Source: Rhizobium sp. C4 (GTDB lineage: Bacteria; Pseudomonadota; Alphaproteobacteria; Rhizobiales; Rhizobiaceae). From it: a stretch of DNA of 64,000 bases. Of the stretch, positions 15,665-38,450 are shown piece after piece; positions within the stretch are counted from its first letter, which is position 1, and each line of letters begins with the position of its first letter. The DNA is taken from the NCBI RefSeq assembly GCF_021026315.1, contig NZ_JAJNCX010000008.1:1-64000 (forward strand), given 5' to 3'. The notes under the pieces were generated by a model. It saw only the letters and a program-made list of their open reading frames with translations, did no database searches and was not told where the DNA came from. The translations under genes and the position numbers were made by a program.

Positions 15665-16468
15665 TCACGCCACGACCGAGGCCTGTTCCTTGGCTATTTT
15701 ATCCGCGATGATCAGCTCGACGCCCGCTTCCTCAAGCATCTGTCGGTCCTCGTCGCGAATTCCGTCATCCGTGATGATCGTCGTCACGCGGTCCAGCGGG
15801 CAGAGCACCAGGCTGGAACGCTTCTTGAACTTGGACGAGTCGGCGAGCACGACGAGTTCGTCCGCCTGGCCGATCAGCTTCTGCTCGGCCTGGATCAGCA
15901 GCGGATCGGCCTCCATGAGACCAAGCTTGCTCAACCCTTGAGCCCCCATGAACATGCGCTTGGCGTAGAAATTCCGCGTCACGTCGTTCTCGAAGGGGCT
16001 GAGAATGATGTTCTGCTCGCGATAGATGACCCCGCCCGAGAGCATGATCGTATTCTTCGAATTCCTGAGCAGATGTTCCGCAATCGGGAACGAATTGGTG
16101 AAGATCTGCATGCGCCGCGACGCGAGCAGATGCACCATCTGGAAGGTCGTCGTGCCGCCATTGATGATGATCGGATCGCCATCGGCGCAAAGTTCGACCG
16201 CTTTCAGTGCAATCGCGCGCTTCTGAGCGATATTGATCGTTTCGTTGACCGAGAAGGGTCGGCCGGCAAGACCGGGGAAGGCCGGCGGATTGATCGCCTC
16301 GGCCCCGCCGCGCACCCGGCGCAGCTTCTTCTGCACATGCAGCGTCGCAATGTCCCGCCGGATCGTCGCTTCCGACGATTCCGTGAGTTCAACCATTTCG
16401 CCGACGGTCACGACAGGCTTTTCCTGGACCGCTGACAGAATGATGCGATGGCGCTCTTTCTCGTGCAT
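15665..16468 (-). CDS. rhaR: DeoR-family repressor of the rhamnose genes
   Basis: This 267-residue regulator has the DeoR winged helix in the first 60 residues (TVGEMVELTESSEATIRRDI). A C-terminal sugar-phosphate-sensing DeoRC domain follows, including INGGTTTFQMVHLL and the later SSKFKKRSSLVL stretch. The start at 16468 has a strong GGGAGGA 5 bases upstream. It is the first gene of the minus-strand rhamnose operon and diverges from rhaD across about 180 AT-rich bases holding palindromes. By analogy with the characterised locus it represses both operons until rhamnose or its phosphate appears; the effector is not visible. Confidence 0.92.
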   Translation of the reverse strand: MHEKERHRIILSAVQEKPVVTVGEMVELTESSEATIRRDIATLHVQKKLRRVRGGAEAINPPAFPGLAGRPFSVNETINIAQKRAIALKAVELCADGDPIIINGGTTTFQMVHLLASRRMQIFTNSFPIAEHLLRNSKNTIMLSGGVIYREQNIILSPFENDVTRNFYAKRMFMGAQGLSKLGLMEADPLLIQAEQKLIGQADELVVLADSSKFKKRSSLVLCPLDRVTTIITDDGIRDEDRQMLEEAGVELIIADKIAKEQASVVA

Positions 16469-16534
16469 GAATTCCTCCCTGCCCTGAACATATTCACTCA
16501 ATGTTAAATTTGTCAATCACATCCGATCAGAAAT

Positions 16535-16559
16535 AATCATATTGCGCTGCAATATGATT
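16535..16559. promoter_or_regulatory. Palindrome, candidate RhaR operator
   Basis: A perfect 11-bp inverted repeat, AATCATATTGC and GCAATATGATT with a 3-base spacer, sits in the divergent rhaR-rhaD promoter region. It is followed by near-repeats of ATTGAAAT / ATCGAAAT / CGATTG (about 16556-16582). It is the strongest symmetric element between the two operons. Assignment to RhaR is by location only. Confidence 0.55.
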
Positions 16560-16649
16560 GAAATTGATCGAAATCGATTGACTTGCGACAAGTTTTGCAG
16601 CATCGATACCGCAAAACTCGAAACATGCGTGTTACGCAGGGAGGAAGAT

Positions 16650-18752
16650 ATGTCGATACAAGAGGCCGGTTCGCGGCTGAAAAACCTGTGGGATAAGGCC
16701 CGCGCGAGCGGCATGAGCGAGCCCGAACTGCTTCTCTATCGCTCCAACCTGCTGGGTTCCGACAAGCGCGTCACCAATTACGGCGGCGGCAATACGTCGG
16801 CCAAGGTGATGCAGAAGGATCCGCTGACGGGCGAACTCGTGGAAGTTCTCTGGGTCAAGGGTTCCGGCGGCGATGTCGGCACGATCAAGATGGACGGCTT
16901 TGCCACGCTCTATATGGACAAGCTGCGCGCGCTCAAGGGCATCTATCGCGGCGTTGCGTTCGAAGACGAGATGGTCGGCTATCTGCCGCACTGCACCTTC
17001 AATCTGAATGCACGCGCCGCCTCCATCGACACGCCGCTGCATGCCTATGTGCCGAAGAAGCACGTCGACCACATGCATCCCGACGCGATCATCGCGATTG
17101 CCGCGTCGGCCAATTCGAAGGAACTGACGCAAAAGATCTTCGGCGGCGAGATCGGCTGGCTGCCCTGGAAGCGTCCGGGCTACGAGCTGGGCCTCTGGCT
17201 TGAAAAGTTCTGCCTCGAAAACCCGTCCGCCAAGGGCGTGGTGCTCGAAAGCCATGGCCTCTTCACCTGGGACGATGACGCGGAAGCCTGCTATGCGCTC
17301 ACCATCGACATCATCAACCGGGCGATTGCCTGGTTCGAGACGGAAACTGCCGGCAAGGCCGTCTTCGGCGGCGAGAAGCACAAGTCACTCGCCCCCGCCG
17401 AGCGCCGCGCTGTGGCAGCAAGCCTCATGCCCGCCATTCGCGGCATGATCTCGAAAGAGGCCCACATGGTCGGCCATTTCGATGATAGCGATGCCGTGCT
17501 GCAGTTCGTCTGCGCCAAGAACATGGAAGCGCTCGCGGCCCTCGGCACCTCCTGCCCCGACCACTTCCTGCGCACCAAGATCCGCCCGCTGGTCGTCGAT
17601 TTCGACCCTGCAAAGCCGGATATCGCCGCGACGCTCGAAAGCCTGAAGCCGAGCGTGGAAGCCTATCGCAAGGACTACGCGGCCTATTACGAACGCTGCA
17701 AGCATCCCGACAGCCCGGCGCTGCGCGATCCCAACGCCATCGTCTATCTCGTCCCCGGCGTCGGCATGATCACCTTCGCCAAGGACAAGGCAACGGCGCG
17801 CATTTCCGGCGAGTTCTATACGAACGCCATCAACGTGATGCGCGGCGCCTCCACCGTGTCGACCTACGTCGGCCTGCCGGAACAGGAAGCCTTCGACATC
17901 GAATACTGGCTGCTCGAGGAAGCCAAGCTCCAGCGCATGCCGAAGCCGAAGTCGCTTGCCGGCCAGATTGCCATCGTCACTGGCGGCGCCGGCGGTATCG
18001 GTTCGGCGACAGCCGCCCGCCTTCTCTCCGAAGGCGCCTGCGTGGCGCTCGCCGATATCGACGAGACCGCCCTTGCCTCGACAATCGACAATCTCGCCGG
18101 CCGCTACGGCAAGGATGTCGTGCGTTCGGTCAAGATGAACGTCACGGACGAGGCTGCGGTCATTGCGGCTTATGCGGATATCGCAGTCGAATTTGGCGGC
18201 ATCGACATTATCGTGTCCAATGCCGGCATCGCCTCCTCCGCTCCGGTCGAGGAAACCTCGCTGGAACTCTGGAACCGCAACATGTCGATCCTGTCGACCG
18301 GCTATTTCCTCGTTGCCCGCGAAGCCTTCAAGGTTCTGCGCCAACAGGCTATCGGCGGCTCGATGATCTTCATCGCCTCGAAGAACGGCCTTGCCGCTTC
18401 GCCGAATGCGTCCGCCTATTGCACCGCCAAGGCCTCCGAAATCCATCTCGCGCGCTGCCTGGCGCTCGAAGGGGCGGAAGCCGGCATTCGCGTGAATGTG
18501 GTGAACCCCGACGCGGTTCTGCGCGGCTCGAAGATCTGGTCCGGCGAGTGGCTGGACCAGCGTGCCTCGACCTACAAGACCGACAAGGAAGGTCTCGAGG
18601 AAATGTACCGCCAGCGCTCCATGCTGAAGCGTTCGGTCCTGCCGGAGGATATTGCGGAAGCGACTTATTTCTTCGCCTCCGATGCCTCGTCCAAGTCGAC
18701 GGGCAATATCATCAACGTCGACGCCGGCAACGTTCAGGCATTCACGCGCTAA
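16650..18752 (+). CDS. rhaD: Bifunctional rhamnulose-1-phosphate aldolase / SDR dehydrogenase
   Basis: This 700-residue fusion has an N-terminal class II aldolase-like domain (about residues 1-430), with GGGNTSAK at 45-52 and a HMHPDAIIAIAAS metal-site region. The C-terminal short-chain dehydrogenase carries GGAGGIG near residue 445 and the YCTAK active site near residue 590. It is predicted to cleave rhamnulose-1-phosphate to DHAP and lactaldehyde and then oxidise the lactaldehyde. The ATG at 16650 follows AGGGAGGA; the upstream extension of the frame crosses the operator region and is rejected. It is first in the rhaD-rhaI operon, divergent from rhaR. Confidence 0.94.
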   Translation: MSIQEAGSRLKNLWDKARASGMSEPELLLYRSNLLGSDKRVTNYGGGNTSAKVMQKDPLTGELVEVLWVKGSGGDVGTIKMDGFATLYMDKLRALKGIYRGVAFEDEMVGYLPHCTFNLNARAASIDTPLHAYVPKKHVDHMHPDAIIAIAASANSKELTQKIFGGEIGWLPWKRPGYELGLWLEKFCLENPSAKGVVLESHGLFTWDDDAEACYALTIDIINRAIAWFETETAGKAVFGGEKHKSLAPAERRAVAASLMPAIRGMISKEAHMVGHFDDSDAVLQFVCAKNMEALAALGTSCPDHFLRTKIRPLVVDFDPAKPDIAATLESLKPSVEAYRKDYAAYYERCKHPDSPALRDPNAIVYLVPGVGMITFAKDKATARISGEFYTNAINVMRGASTVSTYVGLPEQEAFDIEYWLLEEAKLQRMPKPKSLAGQIAIVTGGAGGIGSATAARLLSEGACVALADIDETALASTIDNLAGRYGKDVVRSVKMNVTDEAAVIAAYADIAVEFGGIDIIVSNAGIASSAPVEETSLELWNRNMSILSTGYFLVAREAFKVLRQQAIGGSMIFIASKNGLAASPNASAYCTAKASEIHLARCLALEGAEAGIRVNVVNPDAVLRGSKIWSGEWLDQRASTYKTDKEGLEEMYRQRSMLKRSVLPEDIAEATYFFASDASSKSTGNIINVDAGNVQAFTR

Positions 18753-18754
18753 GG

Positions 18755-18841
18755 CCACACCCCTTCCTCTCCCCTTGTGGGAGAGGAAGAAAAATCAGCA
18801 TCTTAGCTTTAGCTAAGTGCTAGATTTTTCAGGTGAGGGGT
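18755..18841. repeat. Compound palindromic intergenic repeat between rhaD and rhaI
   Basis: Two adjacent inverted repeats are seen. The first is a perfect 11-bp hairpin (18763-18773 with 18779-18789). The second has arms of about 19 bases on either side of a TT centre (aaaaatcagcatcttagct and its partner, about 18790-18831), with one bulge per arm. GC-rich pyrimidine and purine blocks frame the pair. The design resembles mobile-type palindromic units dispersed between rhizobial genes. Lying inside an operon, it could stabilise or process the rhaD-rhaI mRNA. Confidence 0.6.
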
Positions 18842-18865
18842 CACGCACATGAGGAGGAGATTCCC

Positions 18866-20152
18866 ATGACACAGATCGACAAGAGCGTCGTAGACGCACA
18901 CAACGAAAGGGCGTCCGCAGCCCTCAAGGCGGATTATGCAGCCCTTGGCGAACATCTTTCCCGCCGGGGCATAGACATCGATGCCATCAAGGCGAAGGTC
19001 GCCCGCTATGGCGTCGCCATCCCGTCCTGGGGTGTCGGCACGGGCGGCACGCGCTTTGCCCGCTTCCCCGGCGCCGGCGAGCCGCGCAACATCTTCGACA
19101 AGATGGACGATTGCGCCGTCATCCACCGCCTGACCGGGGCAACGCCTGCCGTCTCGCTGCATATCCCGTGGGACAAGGCCGATCCGGCAGCCCTCAAGGC
19201 CAAGGCGGAAGAAACCGGCCTCACCTTCGACGCGATGAATTCCAACACGTTCCAGGACCAGCCGGACCAGGCGCATTCCTACAAGTTCGGCTCGCTCTCG
19301 CATGCCAATGCCGCAACGCGCGAGCAGGCAGCCGAGCACAACATCGAATGCATCGAGATCGGCAAGGCCATCGGCTCCAAGGCGTTGACGGTCTGGATCG
19401 GCGACGGCTCCAACTTCCCGGGCCAGACGAATTTCACCAGGCAGTTCGAGCGTTATCTCGATGCGATGCGCACCGTCTACAAGGCCCTGCCGGATGACTG
19501 GCGCATCTTCACCGAGCACAAGATGTATGAGCCGGCCTTCTATTCGACCGTCGTGCAGGACTGGGGCACGAACTACATGATCGCCGAAGCGCTGGGCCCG
19601 AAGGCCTTCTGCCTCGTCGATCTCGGCCACCATGCCCCGAACGTGAACATCGAAATGATCGTCGCCCGCCTCATCCAGGCGAAGAAGCTCGGCGGCTTCC
19701 ATTTCAACGATTCCAAATATGGCGACGACGACCTCGATACGGGCTCCATCGACCCCTACCGCCTCTTCCTCGTCTTCAACGAACTGGTGGACGCGGAAAC
19801 GCGCGGTGCCGATGGCTTCAACCCCGCCCACATGCTCGACCAGTCACACAACGTCACCGACCCGATCGAAAGCCTGATGGTCTCGGCCATGGAAGTGCAG
19901 CGCGCTTATGCGAGCGCCCTGCTTGTCGACCGCAAGGCACTGGAAGGTTTCCAGGACGGCAATGACGCGCTGATGGCGACGAACACGCTGAAAAAGGCCT
20001 TCCGCACCGATGTCGAGCCGATCCTCGCCATGGCGCGTCTCGAAAAAGGCGTGGCCATCGATCCGGTCGCGGCCTATCGCGCGTCCGGCTACCGCGCCAA
20101 GGTCGCTTCCGAGCGCCCGGCCGTTTCCGGTGCCGGCGGCGGCATCGTCTGA
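18866..20152 (+). CDS. rhaI: L-rhamnose isomerase
   Basis: The enzyme converts L-rhamnose to L-rhamnulose, the first catabolic step. The 428-residue protein is the rhizobial type of rhamnose isomerase with a TIM-barrel metal site. Visible stretches include VSLHIPWDKADP, FRIFTEHKMYEPAF-type residues around TEHKMYEPAFYS, DLGHHAPNVNIE and GGFHFNDSKYGDDDLDTGS, all rich in expected metal-binding Glu, Asp and His. The ATG at 18866 has GAGGAGGAGA upstream. It follows rhaD by 113 bases, across a palindromic repeat, and ends at a strong terminator. Confidence 0.93.
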   Translation: MTQIDKSVVDAHNERASAALKADYAALGEHLSRRGIDIDAIKAKVARYGVAIPSWGVGTGGTRFARFPGAGEPRNIFDKMDDCAVIHRLTGATPAVSLHIPWDKADPAALKAKAEETGLTFDAMNSNTFQDQPDQAHSYKFGSLSHANAATREQAAEHNIECIEIGKAIGSKALTVWIGDGSNFPGQTNFTRQFERYLDAMRTVYKALPDDWRIFTEHKMYEPAFYSTVVQDWGTNYMIAEALGPKAFCLVDLGHHAPNVNIEMIVARLIQAKKLGGFHFNDSKYGDDDLDTGSIDPYRLFLVFNELVDAETRGADGFNPAHMLDQSHNVTDPIESLMVSAMEVQRAYASALLVDRKALEGFQDGNDALMATNTLKKAFRTDVEPILAMARLEKGVAIDPVAAYRASGYRAKVASERPAVSGAGGGIV

Positions 20153-33729: not shown

Positions 33730-34491
33730 TCAAGCCGCCAGAAACGACCTGAGCGCCACGCCACGCGCAGTCAGCTCTCCCCGGATATGGACTGCCATGG
33801 CGATCGCGCTCGGCCCGTCGCCGTGAACACAGATCGAATGGGCGTCGAGCTTGATCGGCGCGCCATCGACGACCGGCATCAGCCCGGTTTCGAGATAGGA
33901 GACCAGCCGGTCGGCGGCCTCTTGCGGATCATGGATCATCGCATCAGCCCGCGAGCGCGGCACGAGGCGGCCTGTGGACAGATATCCGCGATCGGCAAAA
34001 ATTTCGCTGTAGACCGGAACGCCGAGTTCGCGGGCGGCAAGCTCGAGCTCCGTCCCGGAAATCGCCAGAACCGCCATGTCGGGCCCGAAGGCACGGGCGG
34101 CACGGGCGACGGCGGACGCGGCGGCGCGATCATCTGCGCAATGGTTGGCGAGCGCCCCGTGGGCCTTGATATAACGCACCGTGACGCCGGCCAGCGCTGC
34201 CGCGCCCATCAGCGCGCCGGTCTGCGTCGCCACCAGCCGCTCGATTTCGCCCGGCGTCATCGGGATCAGCCGGCGGCCGAAGCCCTCGCGATCGGCAAAG
34301 CCCGGATGCGCACCCACCACGACGCCCCGGTCACGCGCGATTTCCAGCGTGCGGAACATGGTTTCGGGATCGCTGGCATGACCGCCGCAGGCGACGTTGG
34401 CGCTGGTGACGACCTGCAGGATCGCCTCGTCATCACCCATCTTCCAGGGGCCGTAGCTTTCGCCGAGATCGGAATTGAGGTCGATGCGCAT
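33730..34491 (-). CDS. pxpA: 5-oxoprolinase subunit A (LamB/YcsF family)
   Basis: The 253-residue subunit works with PxpB and PxpC in ATP-dependent hydrolysis of 5-oxoproline (pyroglutamate) to glutamate. The family signature is DLNSDLGESYGPW (residues 4-16), followed by SANVACGGHASDP, VGAHPGFADREGFGRR, KAHGALANHC and the C-terminal ICVHGDGPSAI. It is the last gene of the minus-strand cluster, 12 bases after a degenerate biotin-carrier-like gene. Unusually, biotin carboxylase and carrier genes separate it from its partner subunits. Confidence 0.93.
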   Translation of the reverse strand: MRIDLNSDLGESYGPWKMGDDEAILQVVTSANVACGGHASDPETMFRTLEIARDRGVVVGAHPGFADREGFGRRLIPMTPGEIERLVATQTGALMGAAALAGVTVRYIKAHGALANHCADDRAAASAVARAARAFGPDMAVLAISGTELELAARELGVPVYSEIFADRGYLSTGRLVPRSRADAMIHDPQEAADRLVSYLETGLMPVVDGAPIKLDAHSICVHGDGPSAIAMAVHIRGELTARGVALRSFLAA

Positions 34492-34503
34492 GGTCGGACA
34501 ATC

Positions 34504-34878
34504 CTATTCAAACTCGAAGACGGTTTCGCCATAGCCGACAAGGTCACCGGGCCTGACGGGTTTCGCGGCGACCCGACCGGGCTTGTCCGCCTCGATGGCA
34601 AAGCGGATCTCGCCAAGCTCCAGAAAGCCGACGATCTGGTGTTCGGCGACCGGATCACCAACACGGATTGCCGGGACGGTATCGGCGAAGACGCCGAAAT
34701 AGCGGGTGCGGATCGCGGCCTTCGGCTTCACCGCTTTCGGTGCCGCCACCTGAACCGGCTTTTGCGGCCGGTTGACGATGACCTTCAGCCGTCCGCCCTG
34801 GCCGATGGCACATTCGAGTTCGGCAAGCCCGCGGGATTTGGCCAGCGCAATTGCGCGTTCGATTTCGTCGAGCGTCAT
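34504..34878 (-). CDS. Biotin-carrier-like protein lacking the biotinyl lysine
   Basis: This 124-residue protein has the outline of a biotin carboxyl carrier protein: an N-terminal helix ([20 protein letters not shown]), a linker rich in Lys, Pro and Ala, and a biotinyl-like beta domain (residues 58-124). Alignment with the intact carrier two genes upstream puts E-L-G-E-I (residues 87-91) where EAMKM should be. The acceptor lysine is a glutamate, so it cannot be biotinylated there. The flanking IEAD and PGR residues are kept. It overlaps accC by 4 bases. It may be a structural partner or regulator; the function is unknown. Confidence 0.82.
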
Positions 34879-36248
34879 TGTCCGCCCTCCGGCTTCAGGC
34901 CGCCATCGGCAATCAGCGCTTCGAGATAATGGATATCGAAGCCTCCGTCCCGGAAGCCCGGATCATCCATCAGCCTCCGTTGCAGCGGAATATTGGTCGT
35001 CAGCCCGCCGATCTCATATTCGGCCAGCGCCGCCTTCATCCGCGTCACGGCCTCGTCACGCGTGTCGCCATAGGCAATCAGCTTGGCGACGAGTGAATCG
35101 TAATGCGGCGGCACTTCGTAGCCGTCATAGAGATGTGTATCGAGCCGGATGCCCGGCCCGCCCGGCGGACGGTGCGTCTCGACGCGGCCGGGGGCGGGCG
35201 TGAAGGCAAAGGGGTCCTCGGCATTGATGCGGCATTCGATGGCGTGGCCATGCATCGCGATATCGCTTTGGGTAAACGACAGCGGCTCGCCCATGGCGAT
35301 GCGGATCTGCTCACGCACGATGTCGATGCCCGTCACCATTTCCGTGACCGGATGCTCGACCTGCACCCGCGTGTTCATCTCGATGAAGAAGAAGTCGCCG
35401 TTTTCGTAGAGGAATTCAAACGTGCCGGCGCCGCGATAACCCATCTGCTGGCAAGCCGCCACGCAACGCGCGCCGACGCGTTCGATTGCCTCGCGGGGAA
35501 TGCCGGGGGCTGGCGCTTCCTCGATCACCTTCTGGTGCCGGCGCTGCATCGAGCAATCGCGCTCGCCGAGCATGACGGCATTGCCATGATTGTCGGCCAT
35601 TATCTGGATCTCGACATGGCGCGGATGTTCCAGGAACATCTCGATATAGACATCCGGATTGTTGAAGGCGCGGCCCGCTTCCTCGCGGGTCAGCGCCACG
35701 GCACCGGCGAGATCCTCCTCGCGCCGCACGATGCGCATGCCGCGACCGCCGCCGCCACCCGAGGCCTTGACGATGAGCGGATAGCCGGTCTCGGCGGCGA
35801 TATGGCGAACCCGCCAGTCCTCGTCCGGCAAGGCCCCGCCGGAGCCCGGAACGCACGGCACGCCCGCGGCGCGCATCGCTGCCTTGGCGGCGATCTTGTC
35901 GCCCATGGTGCGGATGGCGTCGGCTGGCGGGCCGATGAAGACGAGCCCCGCCTTTTCCACCGCCTCGGCAAAGCCGGCATTTTCGGAGAGAAAGCCATAG
36001 CCCGGATGGATGGCACCCGCCCCGGTCGCCTTCGCCGCCAGAAGGATCGAGGCGATGTTGAGATAGCTGTCGCGCGCCGGCGCGGGGCCGATGCAGAGGC
36101 TCTTGTCGGCAAGCTGCACATGACGCAGATCGCGGTCGGCTTCGGAATGGATTGCAACCGTCTTCAAGCCCAGCGACCGGCAGGCGCGCAGGATGCGGAG
36201 CGCGATCTCTCCCCGGTTGGCGATGAGAACCGTGTCGAACATGGTCAT
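34875..36248 (-). CDS. accC: Biotin carboxylase (AccC-like), linked to oxoprolinase genes
   Basis: The 457-residue biotin carboxylase of the ATP-grasp family carboxylates carrier-bound biotin with ATP and bicarbonate. Motifs include [14 protein letters not shown] at the N terminus, [15 protein letters not shown], the ATP-grasp glycine loop [32 protein letters not shown] and the catalytic [12 protein letters not shown]. Its position inside a pxp cluster suggests it is not the housekeeping acetyl-CoA carboxylase subunit. It is coupled at both ends by 4-base overlaps to the carrier genes. The symbol denotes family only. Confidence 0.9.
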
Positions 36249-36694
36249 CCTTCGATTTCGGGAAGGAGGGCGCCGATCTCGAAGAGAAGCGCGCCACGCG
36301 TAACCGGAGCACCATCCTCGACCGCAATGGAGACAATCCTGCCTGCGCGGTCGGCCTCGATGGGCGTCAGCATCTTCATCGCCTCGATAAGACCGAGCAC
36401 CTGCCCCTCCGCGATCGTGTCACCCGGCTTCACATAGGGTTCCGCCCCCGGCGCCGAGGCGCGATAGAAGGTGCCGGCCATGCCGGAATTGAGCTTGTGC
36501 AGCGCCGGCGGTGGCGGAGCGGCGCCCTCGCCGGCCGCCTTCGTCTCGACATGCGCGACGCGATCGGTCGAGCTTTCCTCCTCTTCGTCGCCCAGCGTGA
36601 TGCGCACGGTCTCGCCATTCACCTCATATTCGAGGCCGGCAATTCCGCTCTTCTTCGCCAGTTCGATCAGGCGTTCGATGAAGTCGATATCCAT
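36245..36694 (-). CDS. accB: Biotin carboxyl carrier protein (AccB-like)
   Basis: This 149-residue carrier has an N-terminal helical region ([20 protein letters not shown]) and an acidic stretch at about 36-41. A Pro/Ala linker (APPPPAL) leads to the C-terminal biotinyl domain with an intact EAMKM motif, Lys107 being the biotin site. The start at 36694 lies 7 bases after the pxpC stop and its stop overlaps the accC start. It should be biotinylated and serve the neighbouring biotin carboxylase. Which carboxyl transferase it serves is the open question; PxpB and PxpC are the nearest candidates. Confidence 0.9.
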
Positions 36695-36701
36695 GTCAGT
36701 C

Positions 36702-37661
36702 CTAACCAGCCAGCGACCGGGCCACGGCCACGGTACGGGCGAGTGCGTCGATCTCAAGGCGCTGCCTGCGAAGCGCGGCATTGGCTTCGTCCGGCGTCAC
36801 TTCGGTGAAGAGAAAGCGGCTTTCGGGTCCGGCCTGCCCGACGATCCAGAGATCCGCCTCGATGATGGTCGCGATCTTCGGATAGCCGCCGCATGTATTG
36901 GCATCCGCCAGCTGGATGATCGGCTTGCCGGAGGGCGGAACCTGGATCGTGCCGGGCAGGATGCCATGCGACATCAGTTCCAGCCGGCGCTCAAGCTTCA
37001 GTTCCGGGCCTTCGAGGCGATAGCCCATGCGGTCCGCCTCCGGCGTCACCCGCCAGGACCAGCGCGAGAAAAGCTTGCGGGCATCGGCAGAGAAGACCGA
37101 AAACTCCGCCGCCGGCACGGCCCGAACGGGGAGCGGATTGGCAAAGTCGAGCATCGCGAAAGGGTCGAGCGCCGCGCCGAAGGCCCGCATCGGCGGCATG
37201 GCCGCCACCGTCAGCCGGTCGCCGCGCCTCAGGCCGCGCCCTTCCAGCCCGCCATAGCCGGATTTGAGGTCCGTCGCGCGTGAGCCCAGCACCGGCTCGA
37301 TCTCGATGCCGCCGGCGAAAGTGATATAGACGCGCGCACCCTTTTCCGGCGGCGCGATCACCAGCGTCTCGCCTTCGGCCGCACTTGCCGCCCAGCGCGG
37401 CGGCAGCGGGCGTCCGCCAAGCGTAACGTCACCTTCCGCGCCGGTGACGGCAAAGCGGGTCGGCTGATCGAAGCGCAAGCGGAAGGGGAAGATGGCGATC
37501 TCCAGGCCCGCCGCATTCAGATCGTTGCCCAGCAGCGCATTACCGATCATCAGCGACAGGCGATCCATCGCGCCGCTGCGGCTCACCCCGATATCGAAGC
37601 GACCATTGCGGCCGAGATCCTGGATCGAATTCGCCGCACCCGTCGTCAGCACCTCGATCAT
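36702..37661 (-). CDS. pxpC: 5-oxoprolinase subunit C (biotin-dependent carboxyltransferase family)
   Basis: The 319-residue protein belongs to the KipA/PxpC family, homologous to a domain of urea amidolyase. Recognisable stretches are NSIQDLGRNGRFDIGVSRSG at about residues 11-30, AMDRLSLMIGNALLGND, the VPPSGKPIIQLADANTCGGY region and a PKIATIIEADL segment. It pairs with PxpB; the two genes overlap by 4 bases. It is the natural cyclophilin-like partner in 5-oxoproline hydrolysis. Its family name comes from similarity to carboxyltransferases, which the adjacent biotin genes make interesting. Confidence 0.92.
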   Translation of the reverse strand: MIEVLTTGAANSIQDLGRNGRFDIGVSRSGAMDRLSLMIGNALLGNDLNAAGLEIAIFPFRLRFDQPTRFAVTGAEGDVTLGGRPLPPRWAASAAEGETLVIAPPEKGARVYITFAGGIEIEPVLGSRATDLKSGYGGLEGRGLRRGDRLTVAAMPPMRAFGAALDPFAMLDFANPLPVRAVPAAEFSVFSADARKLFSRWSWRVTPEADRMGYRLEGPELKLERRLELMSHGILPGTIQVPPSGKPIIQLADANTCGGYPKIATIIEADLWIVGQAGPESRFLFTEVTPDEANAALRRQRLEIDALARTVAVARSLAG

Positions 37662-38317
37662 AGCCAGACATCCTCGATGGTGAAGCGGACGATGTCGCCC
37701 GGTGCCAGTGTCGAGGGCTCGTCGCGATGCGGATCGAAGAGTGCGATCTTGGTATGGCCGATGATATGCCAGCCCGAAGGCGAGGTCTGCGGCATGACGG
37801 CGGCCTGCGCGCCGCCGACGATCACCGATCCGACGGGGACGGCAAGCCGCGGCGTCGAGCGCCGGGCAATCGCCAGCGCCGGATCGAGACCGGACAGATA
37901 GGGAAATCCCGGCATCGCGCCAATCGCCGCCACCTGATAGGTCCCCGCCGCATGGCGCTGCGCGGCCTCAAGCGGGGCGAGCCCGCAATGGCGCGACCAG
38001 GGCTTGAAATCCTCGCCATTCTGCCCGCCATAGACGACGGGAATTTCCACCGTCTTGCCACGACGCGGCAGCGGCTGCGCCTTGGCCCAGCGGTCGGTGA
38101 GTTCCCGGCGCGCCTCTTCCGGCGCGATCTGCTCGGGGTCAAAGAGCGCAAGGATGTTGTTCATGCCCGGCACGGTTTCGATGAAGCCCGGTGCCGAGGT
38201 CAGGTCGCTCGCCAGCGACCAGATGCGCTTCTGGAACTGGTCATCGAAACGGCTTGAATTGGATTGCAGGAGCAATGCACTTCCGCCGGAAAAACTGATC
38301 GTGATCGGCTCTCGCAT
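37658..38317 (-). CDS. pxpB: 5-oxoprolinase subunit B (KipI/allophanate hydrolase subunit 1 family)
   Basis: The 219-residue subunit has the family motifs FSGGSALLLQ near the N terminus, TVPGMNNILALFDP, the PVVYGGQNGEDF stretch and MPGFPYLSGLDPALAIARR. The C-terminal PVGSVIVGGAQAAVMPQTSP is followed by GWHIIGHTKIALFDP. The start at 38317 has GGGGAG upstream; the longer open frame upstream lacks similarity. It is the first gene of the pxpB-pxpC-accB-accC-carrier-pxpA run. The 133-base gap before it should hold the operon promoter, although the sugar-acid dehydratase gene upstream points the same way. Confidence 0.92.
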   Translation of the reverse strand: MREPITISFSGGSALLLQSNSSRFDDQFQKRIWSLASDLTSAPGFIETVPGMNNILALFDPEQIAPEEARRELTDRWAKAQPLPRRGKTVEIPVVYGGQNGEDFKPWSRHCGLAPLEAAQRHAAGTYQVAAIGAMPGFPYLSGLDPALAIARRSTPRLAVPVGSVIVGGAQAAVMPQTSPSGWHIIGHTKIALFDPHRDEPSTLAPGDIVRFTIEDVWL

Positions 38318-38450
38318 GACGGTTGGCGGCTCCCCTTTCGCCGGATCGGAAGCGCGAGACTCATGCCCGCCCTTCCGTTGCGTCAGGATGGCCCTTTCAG
38401 CCAACGAAAACAAGGAACAGACAAGGTTATCCCCTGCCCTCGTCCCAGGC

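Follow-up and report, generated by a model that had tools for sequence, protein, structure and literature searches.

Why should the genes of a 5-oxoprolinase share an operon with a biotin carboxylase and two carrier-type proteins? The question is raised by a locus in a 64,000-nucleotide stretch of Rhizobium sp. C4 (contig NZ_JAJNCX010000008.1, positions 1 to 64,000; the whole stretch is called the window here), in which six genes follow one another on the minus strand in the order pxpB-pxpC-accB-accC-carrier-like-pxpA. An earlier reading of the letters alone (the sequence-only reading) had given this order with its overlaps and gaps, and all of these are exact to the base. The pxp genes correspond to those named YbgJKL in E. 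coli and KipI/KipA/YcsF in B. subtilis. The six genes are as follows (aa, amino acids; BCCP, biotin carboxyl carrier protein).

pxpB, 38317-37658, minus strand: carboxyltransferase subdomains C/D, 219 aa, with an ATG start at 38317
pxpC, 37661-36702, minus strand: carboxyltransferase subdomains A/B, 319 aa
accB, 36694-36245, minus strand: biotin carboxyl carrier protein, 149 aa, motif EAMKM
accC, 36248-34875, minus strand: biotin carboxylase, 457 aa
carrier-like gene (pseudo-carrier), 34878-34504, minus strand: paralogue of BCCP that lacks the biotin lysine, 124 aa
pxpA, 34491-33730, minus strand: subunit of a lactam hydrolase (LamB/YcsF), 253 aa, with Ala115

Three junctions (pxpB/pxpC, accB/accC and accC/carrier-like) share the four bases ATGA, and the remaining gaps measure only 7 bases (pxpC-accB) and 12 bases (carrier-like-pxpA), so that the six genes can fairly be regarded as one transcription unit. 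Their products probably act together as a single lactam hydrolase that depends on biotin, consumes ATP and bicarbonate and is related, in split form, to urea amidolyase; in it, PxpBC would N-carboxylate the lactam and PxpA would open the ring.

The identities of the proteins offer a first level of detail. In a longer frame (37658-38413), the pxpB product matches PF02682 (CT_C_D, 7.9e-62) and passes the PxpB equivalog TIGR00370 with 184.3 bits (cut-off 145.55); its closest sequence in the Protein Data Bank (PDB) is E. coli YbgJ (5dud_B). The pxpC product matches PF02626 (CT_A_B, 5.5e-84) and TIGR00724 (279.1 bits, cut-off 230.2), and stays below the cut-off of the PxpC_5OPro equivalog NF045499 (281.6 bits vs 500). 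Its predicted model lies nearest to E. coli YbgK (5dud_A, template modelling (TM) score TMq 0.85), and also matches urea carboxylase 3va7 (TMq 0.83). PxpB aligns with the matching part of urea carboxylase, which belongs to the same CT_C_D family, and by homology PxpB and PxpC together correspond to the carboxyltransferase domain of that enzyme. The kinship to the urea amidolyase carboxyltransferase claimed by the sequence-only reading is thus confirmed, by the CT_A_B and CT_C_D matches and by the fit of the PxpC model to 3va7. AccB, in a longer frame (36245-36781), matches PF00364 (Biotin_lipoyl, 2.3e-19) with its biotinyl-lysine motif EAMKM intact, and AccC is covered over its full length by PF00289, PF02786 and PF02785, as a complete biotin carboxylase. 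PxpA matches PF03746 (LamB_YcsF, 1.6e-89) and keeps the family residues N6, D8, E11, H38, D41, H62, D67 and R73, together with Q90, K109, H111, D167, R168, H223 and D225.

How often accBC sit beside pxpABC, a question already posed by the sequence-only reading, was surveyed in a phylum sample of 199 genomes, 81 of them with a PF02626 match. We took 76 PxpC loci with up to 9 kb on either side, all with frames too short for urea carboxylase; frames above 1,000 aa (deemed urea carboxylases by length), the cut match G004 and the two loci of the Rhizobium sp. C4 genome itself were excluded. An accC gene lies within ~9 kb of PxpC at 19 of the 76 loci, which is above the ~2/76 that we estimate for chance from the biotin carboxylase genes of the Rhizobium sp. 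C4 assembly (eight C-terminal domains in 5.2 Mb). The linked loci, as opposed to those without accC nearby (called unlinked below), comprise two of type I, five of type II, 11 of type III and the single locus L088.

Type I: accB, accC, lysine-less BCCP, pxpB, pxpC and pxpA, in variable order and strand; the window operon is of this type
Type II: pxpA, short accB, accC, long pxpB and pxpC
Type III: pxpA; pxpB-pxpC, fused in 10/11; accC with a C-terminal biotin domain, EAMKM being found in 10/11
L088: accC and accB adjoin pxpBC of another clade

A second BCCP-like frame without the lysine is seen at L088 (6276-6701), ~1.5 kb from its pxpA. Among annotated plasmids, a type II relative occurs in a haloarchaeon and a pxp-acc operon in Lactiplantibacillus (L221).

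Rhizobium sp. C4 itself carries further copies. The sequence-only reading had allowed that the linkage would be incidental if the accBC genes of the operon were the sole ones in the genome; a separate accB-accC pair is present at C1:449852-451406 (L022), its AccC being 56% identical to that of the window, and this second pair, together with the recurrence of the arrangement, rules out an incidental linkage. A second pxp-acc cluster lies on contig C20 at 15861-20108 (L021 6862-11109), with pxpA, short accB, accC, pxpB and pxpC. It is of type II with the urea-carboxylase-like residues Lys, Asp and Tyr, and is a different carboxylase from the window operon. Judged by the translations, it is preceded by a LysR gene and a sigma-54-type regulator and followed by an ATP-binding cassette (ABC) transporter of the branched-chain type.

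To look at type I more closely, the best 80 named loci were drawn from a scan of genome contigs with type I PxpC; being near relatives of one query, they represent Rhizobiales, Burkholderiales, Acetobacteraceae, Pseudomonas and others. With the window, seven plasmid loci and L053, L061, L098, L088 and L073 they make up 93 loci, 67 of which contain all six genes by motif labels. At 15 further loci (L147, L150, L156-L161, L164, L175, L178, L180, L188, L196 and L216), both carriers and pxpABC are present with no accC in the examined stretch, and in all 15 the carrier genes either overlap each other or are separated by no more than 8 bases. The remaining 11 deviate otherwise, several at contig ends. 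Six accC-less genomes have biotin carboxylases outside the stretch (two of the six with only one AccC-like frame plus one frame of 1,158 aa), and the carriers of accC-less loci would be served by the housekeeping AccC.

The label of the carrier-like gene, given by the sequence-only reading, holds for its fold and its similarity to BCCP and fails for its function. The protein matches no Pfam family; in NCBIfam it resembles BCCP (TIGR00531, 1e-6), and its predicted model (mean predicted local distance difference test score 85, with an N-terminal helix) fits structure 1bdo, the E. coli BCCP biotinyl domain (TM score 0.84 by target length). A Glu replaces the biotin lysine, and a second working carrier is thereby ruled out. 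The same division runs through the relatives. We aligned 168 of 176 carrier frames, excluding those of at least 260 aa, and found the lysine in 85 of the 168 and another residue in 83 (Pro 28, Glu 10, Leu 9, Gly 8, Ser 7 and Ala 6, more rarely Met 4, Val 4, His 3, Thr 2 and Asp 2). Since a split by lysine defines itself, the carriers were sorted again by position relative to accC: those upstream of accC have the lysine in 71/71 cases, and those downstream lack it in 72/73. Per locus, the 89 loci with aligned carriers hold one of each (77), two with and one without lysine (1), only one with (6) or only one without (5). A lysine-less BCCP therefore stands beside a working carrier at 78/89 loci. 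By alignment, L197 and L212 also carry a lysine-less BCCP, although motif labels showed none. The plasmid search with the carrier-like protein alone returned only four records.

Quick trees, with Shimodaira-Hasegawa-like approximate likelihood ratio test (SH-aLRT) values as the only support, were built for PxpC+PxpB (104 rows) and for AccC (50 rows, the short AccC of L066 being removed by the length filter). In the PxpC+PxpB tree, urea carboxylase and type III each form one branch (100, starred), type II comprises nine rows including the unlinked L064 (99, starred), and type I comprises 22 rows including the unlinked L073 (99, starred). Type I joins a clade of seven unlinked loci and L088 (clade 94, unstarred) under a branch of 100 (starred), and several PxpB of that clade carry the E. 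coli YbgJ motif GFQPGF. The AccC tree gives type I, type III and six of the type II rows a clade each, and none of these takes in the three housekeeping-type AccC or urea carboxylase; L088 branches as the sister of type I (96, starred), and the haloarchaeal type II AccC sits elsewhere on a long branch. Since the AccC clades are separate by type, each carboxylase seems to have been associated with its PxpBC for a long time.

A structural hint comes from PDB entry 9yx5, found by PDB sequence search. Its chains V and W, named 'allophanate hydrolase' subunits 2 and 1, are relatives of the window PxpC and PxpB and near-identical to Msmeg0435-0436 of M. smegmatis (3mml), and the entry is also listed among those of AccA3; two sister entries, 9yx1 and 9yx2, carry the title of a long chain acyl-CoA carboxylase complex from Mycobacterium smegmatis. 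Entry 9yx5 is absent from the 50 listed matches of the PxpC fold search, and no paper on its complex was found in the open-licence literature. A mycobacterial PII study reports AccA3 as a PII partner and lists MSMEG_0435, annotated as 'allophanate hydrolase subunit 2', as changed (PMC11001197); this link and 9yx5 may belong to one nitrogen-linked system. Given that the linkage recurs in separate clades, that the carrier pair is conserved and that 9yx5 lists homologues of PxpB and PxpC with AccA3, a dedicated biotin carboxylase and carrier system tied to PxpBC, as the sequence-only reading proposed, is strongly supported.

How would such a system work? AccC and AccB are intact and typical of their families, and AccC, spending ATP, would carboxylate the biotin of AccB. 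PxpB and PxpC would then transfer the carboxyl to the nitrogen of the lactam ring, and PxpA would hydrolyse the activated ring amide, after which the carbamate would shed CO2 and the amino acid would be freed. The lysine-less BCCP may be a structural or docking subunit paired with AccB, since it is conserved with AccB even where accC is missing. A carboxylation step, suggested by the sequence-only reading, is what the linkage, the carrier pair and the 9yx5 list best point to, while the Arg of PxpB discussed below speaks against that part of the proposal.

Known systems share parts of this design. Urea carboxylase and urea amidolyase (3va7, 5i8i) likewise combine a biotin carboxylase, a BCCP and the same carboxyltransferase (PxpC-like, then PxpB-like) with a hydrolase whose substrate is the product of carboxylation. 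However, urea amidolyase is one fused chain of ~1,200 aa with Lys1605 and an allophanate hydrolase, whereas the window has Arg and a LamB/YcsF PxpA. The PxpABC 5-oxoprolinase shares with the window homologues of all three pxp proteins and their conserved residues, and type I groups with the YbgJ-like unlinked clade; as published, however, it needs no biotin subunits. Pxp and acc genes also share one operon in S. aureus, where a published description places six genes, including pxpA, pxpB, pxpC, accB and accC, under CcpE and treats accBC as fatty-acid genes (PMC11315280), and in Lactiplantibacillus L221, which differs from the window by a single BCCP, a D-glutamate cyclase and an NRAMP-type transporter. 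For Lactiplantibacillus pentosus, an extra accBC and, separately, pxpB/pxpC have been noted (PMC12427679). Entry 9yx5 resembles the window in combining PxpB/PxpC homologues with a biotin carboxylase-BCCP protein and differs in that this protein is the shared AccA3. An old two-component oxoprolinase of P. putida, with component A of 64 + 51 kDa and component B of 82 kDa as cited in PMC8453981, may offer a lead: its sizes roughly resemble those of type III, where AccC-BCCP measures 60.4-62.8 kDa (11 loci), PxpA 26.1-27.3 kDa and PxpBC 56.1-59.9 kDa (533-568 aa) in nine single-frame loci, the frame of L076 being untrimmed and L084 having two frames. The open-licence literature, whose limited coverage is no proof of novelty, yielded no paper explaining the pxp-acc linkage.

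The companion genes hint at the substrate. D-glutamate cyclase is an enzyme of 5-oxoproline chemistry, and its family (PF07286) is found near type III loci (6/11), unlinked loci (10/57) and one of 81 type I loci, with none near type II (0/5). Type III, Bacillota and unlinked PxpABC can be tied to 5-oxoproline because of this neighbour. Together with an NRAMP-type transporter, the cyclase is also seen in the pxp-biotin carboxylase plasmid operons of Klebsiella (L222) and Lactiplantibacillus (L221). Around the 81 type I loci, an uneven sample of near relatives of one query, we counted aminotransferase (29), short-chain dehydrogenase/reductase (SDR; 30), RraA-type aldolase (27) and proline-racemase-family genes (22), compared with 3, 1, 5 and 0 around the 57 unlinked loci; at least one of aminotransferase, RraA and racemase is near 50 of the 81. 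Transporters nearby are of the amino-acid or branched-chain ABC type in some annotated cases and of the major facilitator superfamily in others. Since many type I relatives carry an aminotransferase, RraA aldolase, SDR or proline-racemase-family enzyme, type I may act on a substituted 5-oxoproline, e.g. pyroglutamate bearing a hydroxyl or methyl group; the companions would fit a route in which the glutamate analogue set free is transaminated and then split by the RraA aldolase. At PxpA position 115, Tyr is found in unlinked (31/50), type II (7/7) and type III (11/11) proteins, whereas in 84 of 87 type I rows the residue is Gly (72) or Ala (12, with the window among them), and a larger substrate would agree with this. 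The neighbourhoods of L053 and L136, where the module has an RraA-type aldolase, an aminotransferase and an SDR close by, are candidate catabolic clusters of plant-associated bacteria. The proline-racemase-family genes near type I pxpC (e.g. L150 11003-12037 and L198 13254-14279) encode SPCG in 20/22 cases and SPTG in two (L198 and L192), and the two forms may differ in activity.

Several observations weigh against a biotin-dependent lactam hydrolase. One concerns the active-site residues. For K. lactis urea amidolyase, Lys1605 is named as most likely the general base of carboxyl transfer (PMC5770610). This column, placed in TKYNP by counting along the alignment, is Arg152 in the window PxpB. 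It is Lys in urea carboxylase (6/6) and type II (8/8), and Arg in type I (21/21, two of them without accC), type III (11/11), L088 and 56/57 unlinked loci, the exception being L064 of the type II branch. Trp183 of the window PxpB (vs Tyr) and Ser231 of its PxpC (vs Asp) also follow the unlinked pattern, and these columns show the same split, with one unlinked exception each. The residue pattern thus counts against a plain urea-carboxylase mechanism. Plain urea carboxylase is ruled out for the window by the split genes, by this Arg and by the urea carboxylase model TIGR02712, whose cut-off of 1303.85 is reached neither by PxpC (145.1 bits) nor by AccC (491.2 bits). In PxpA, Lys109 is kept in 49/50 unlinked proteins and is Ser or Gly in 22 of 87 type I proteins, the window not among them (L098, L133, L135, L136, L138, L190, L193, L195, L200, L202, L205-L215 and L217), and type I may therefore be functionally split.

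The remaining points concern distribution and precedent. The unlinked loci number 57 of 76. None of aminotransferase, RraA and racemase is near 31 of the 81 type I loci, and the window has no aminotransferase, RraA, SDR or proline-racemase companion. In Rhizobium sp. C1 (L141), a close relative with pxpC 92% identical to that of the window, no pxpA lies beside the operon, and tblastn with the pxpA of the window and of C20 found no match in the 21-kb locus. Entry 9yx5 was read only as a molecule list and comes from another organism. The B. subtilis 5-oxoprolinase was reportedly reconstituted in 2017 from its three recombinant proteins PxpA, PxpB and PxpC. What is assumed in print is that PxpBC phosphorylates 5-oxoproline at the expense of ATP (PMC13274462).

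At the residues described, the biotin-linked types I and III are indistinguishable from unlinked PxpBC and may share its chemistry. Either this chemistry differs from that of urea carboxylase, or unlinked PxpABC also borrow a biotin carboxylase. The second branch leads to a broader view, tentative and in our judgement somewhat doubtful, by which dependence on biotin is a general feature of the prokaryotic 5-oxoprolinase: PxpBC would N-carboxylate 5-oxoproline, with a biotin carboxylase spending the ATP and PxpA opening the ring so activated, and the AccC and carrier would be its own (types I-III, Bacillota) or a borrowed housekeeping set (E. coli, B. subtilis, mycobacteria). Type I loci with carriers and no accC would then be a step between an own and a borrowed biotin carboxylase, and the type I BCCP paralogue without a biotin site would be a conserved partner to the working carrier.

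If, on the other hand, the carboxylated product is stable, the operon would encode a biotin-dependent enzyme that carboxylates some small nitrogen compound (urea-like, guanidine-like or an imide), PxpA would act on the product, and 5-oxoproline would be uninvolved. The carboxyltransferase homology to urea carboxylase would agree with this, as would the failure of PxpC to reach the 5-oxoprolinase equivalog cut-off, the Lys, Asp and Tyr of the type II cluster in the same genome, and the type I companions, which are unlike those of unlinked PxpABC and include D-glutamate cyclase only once. We nevertheless regard a stable product as unlikely: type I PxpB and PxpC carry Arg, Trp and Ser as unlinked PxpBC do, type I groups with the clade in which the YbgJ motif is shared, and an amino-acid lactam accounts for the neighbouring aldolase, aminotransferase and racemase more readily than a urea does.

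A regulatory explanation fares worse and seems quite improbable. It holds that PxpABC, working alone, phosphorylates 5-oxoproline, and that accBC is co-transcribed only to increase malonyl-CoA or carbon flux while amino acids are abundant. The phosphorylation assumed in print agrees with it, as does the S. aureus work, in which the CcpE-controlled operon is taken to combine a 5-oxoprolinase with fatty-acid genes. However, a Pfam scan of the operon proteins found neither accA nor accD in the window operon, the AccC of each linked type stands apart from housekeeping AccC, carriers are retained where accC is missing, type III fuses both PxpB with PxpC and AccC with a biotin domain, and 9yx5 lists PxpBC with AccA3.

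That accBC are remnants or spare housekeeping genes here by chance is very hard to credit even though AccC passes the acetyl-CoA carboxylase equivalog TIGR00514 (706.1 bits, cut-off 626.5), given another accBC in the genome and the recurrence of all six genes at most of the 93 loci, in several proteobacterial orders.

Downstream of pxpA lies a convergent frame which we take to be crcB. Upstream, 133 bases from the operon and on the same strand, a FAH-like protein is encoded that matches PF01557 only below its cut-off; its translation and those around it suggest that it belongs with a divergent sugar ABC transporter.

How PxpABC spends ATP has thus been assumed in print, and a biotin-dependent N-carboxylation that drives lactam opening, if true, would change the mechanism of a widespread metabolite-repair enzyme. 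Many genes called acetyl-CoA carboxylase subunits would then be misnamed, perhaps those of the S. aureus operon too, and the lysine-less BCCP would represent a novel type of subunit in carrier complexes. The attachment of CO2 would, finally, be a means of breaking stable amides beyond urea and guanidine.

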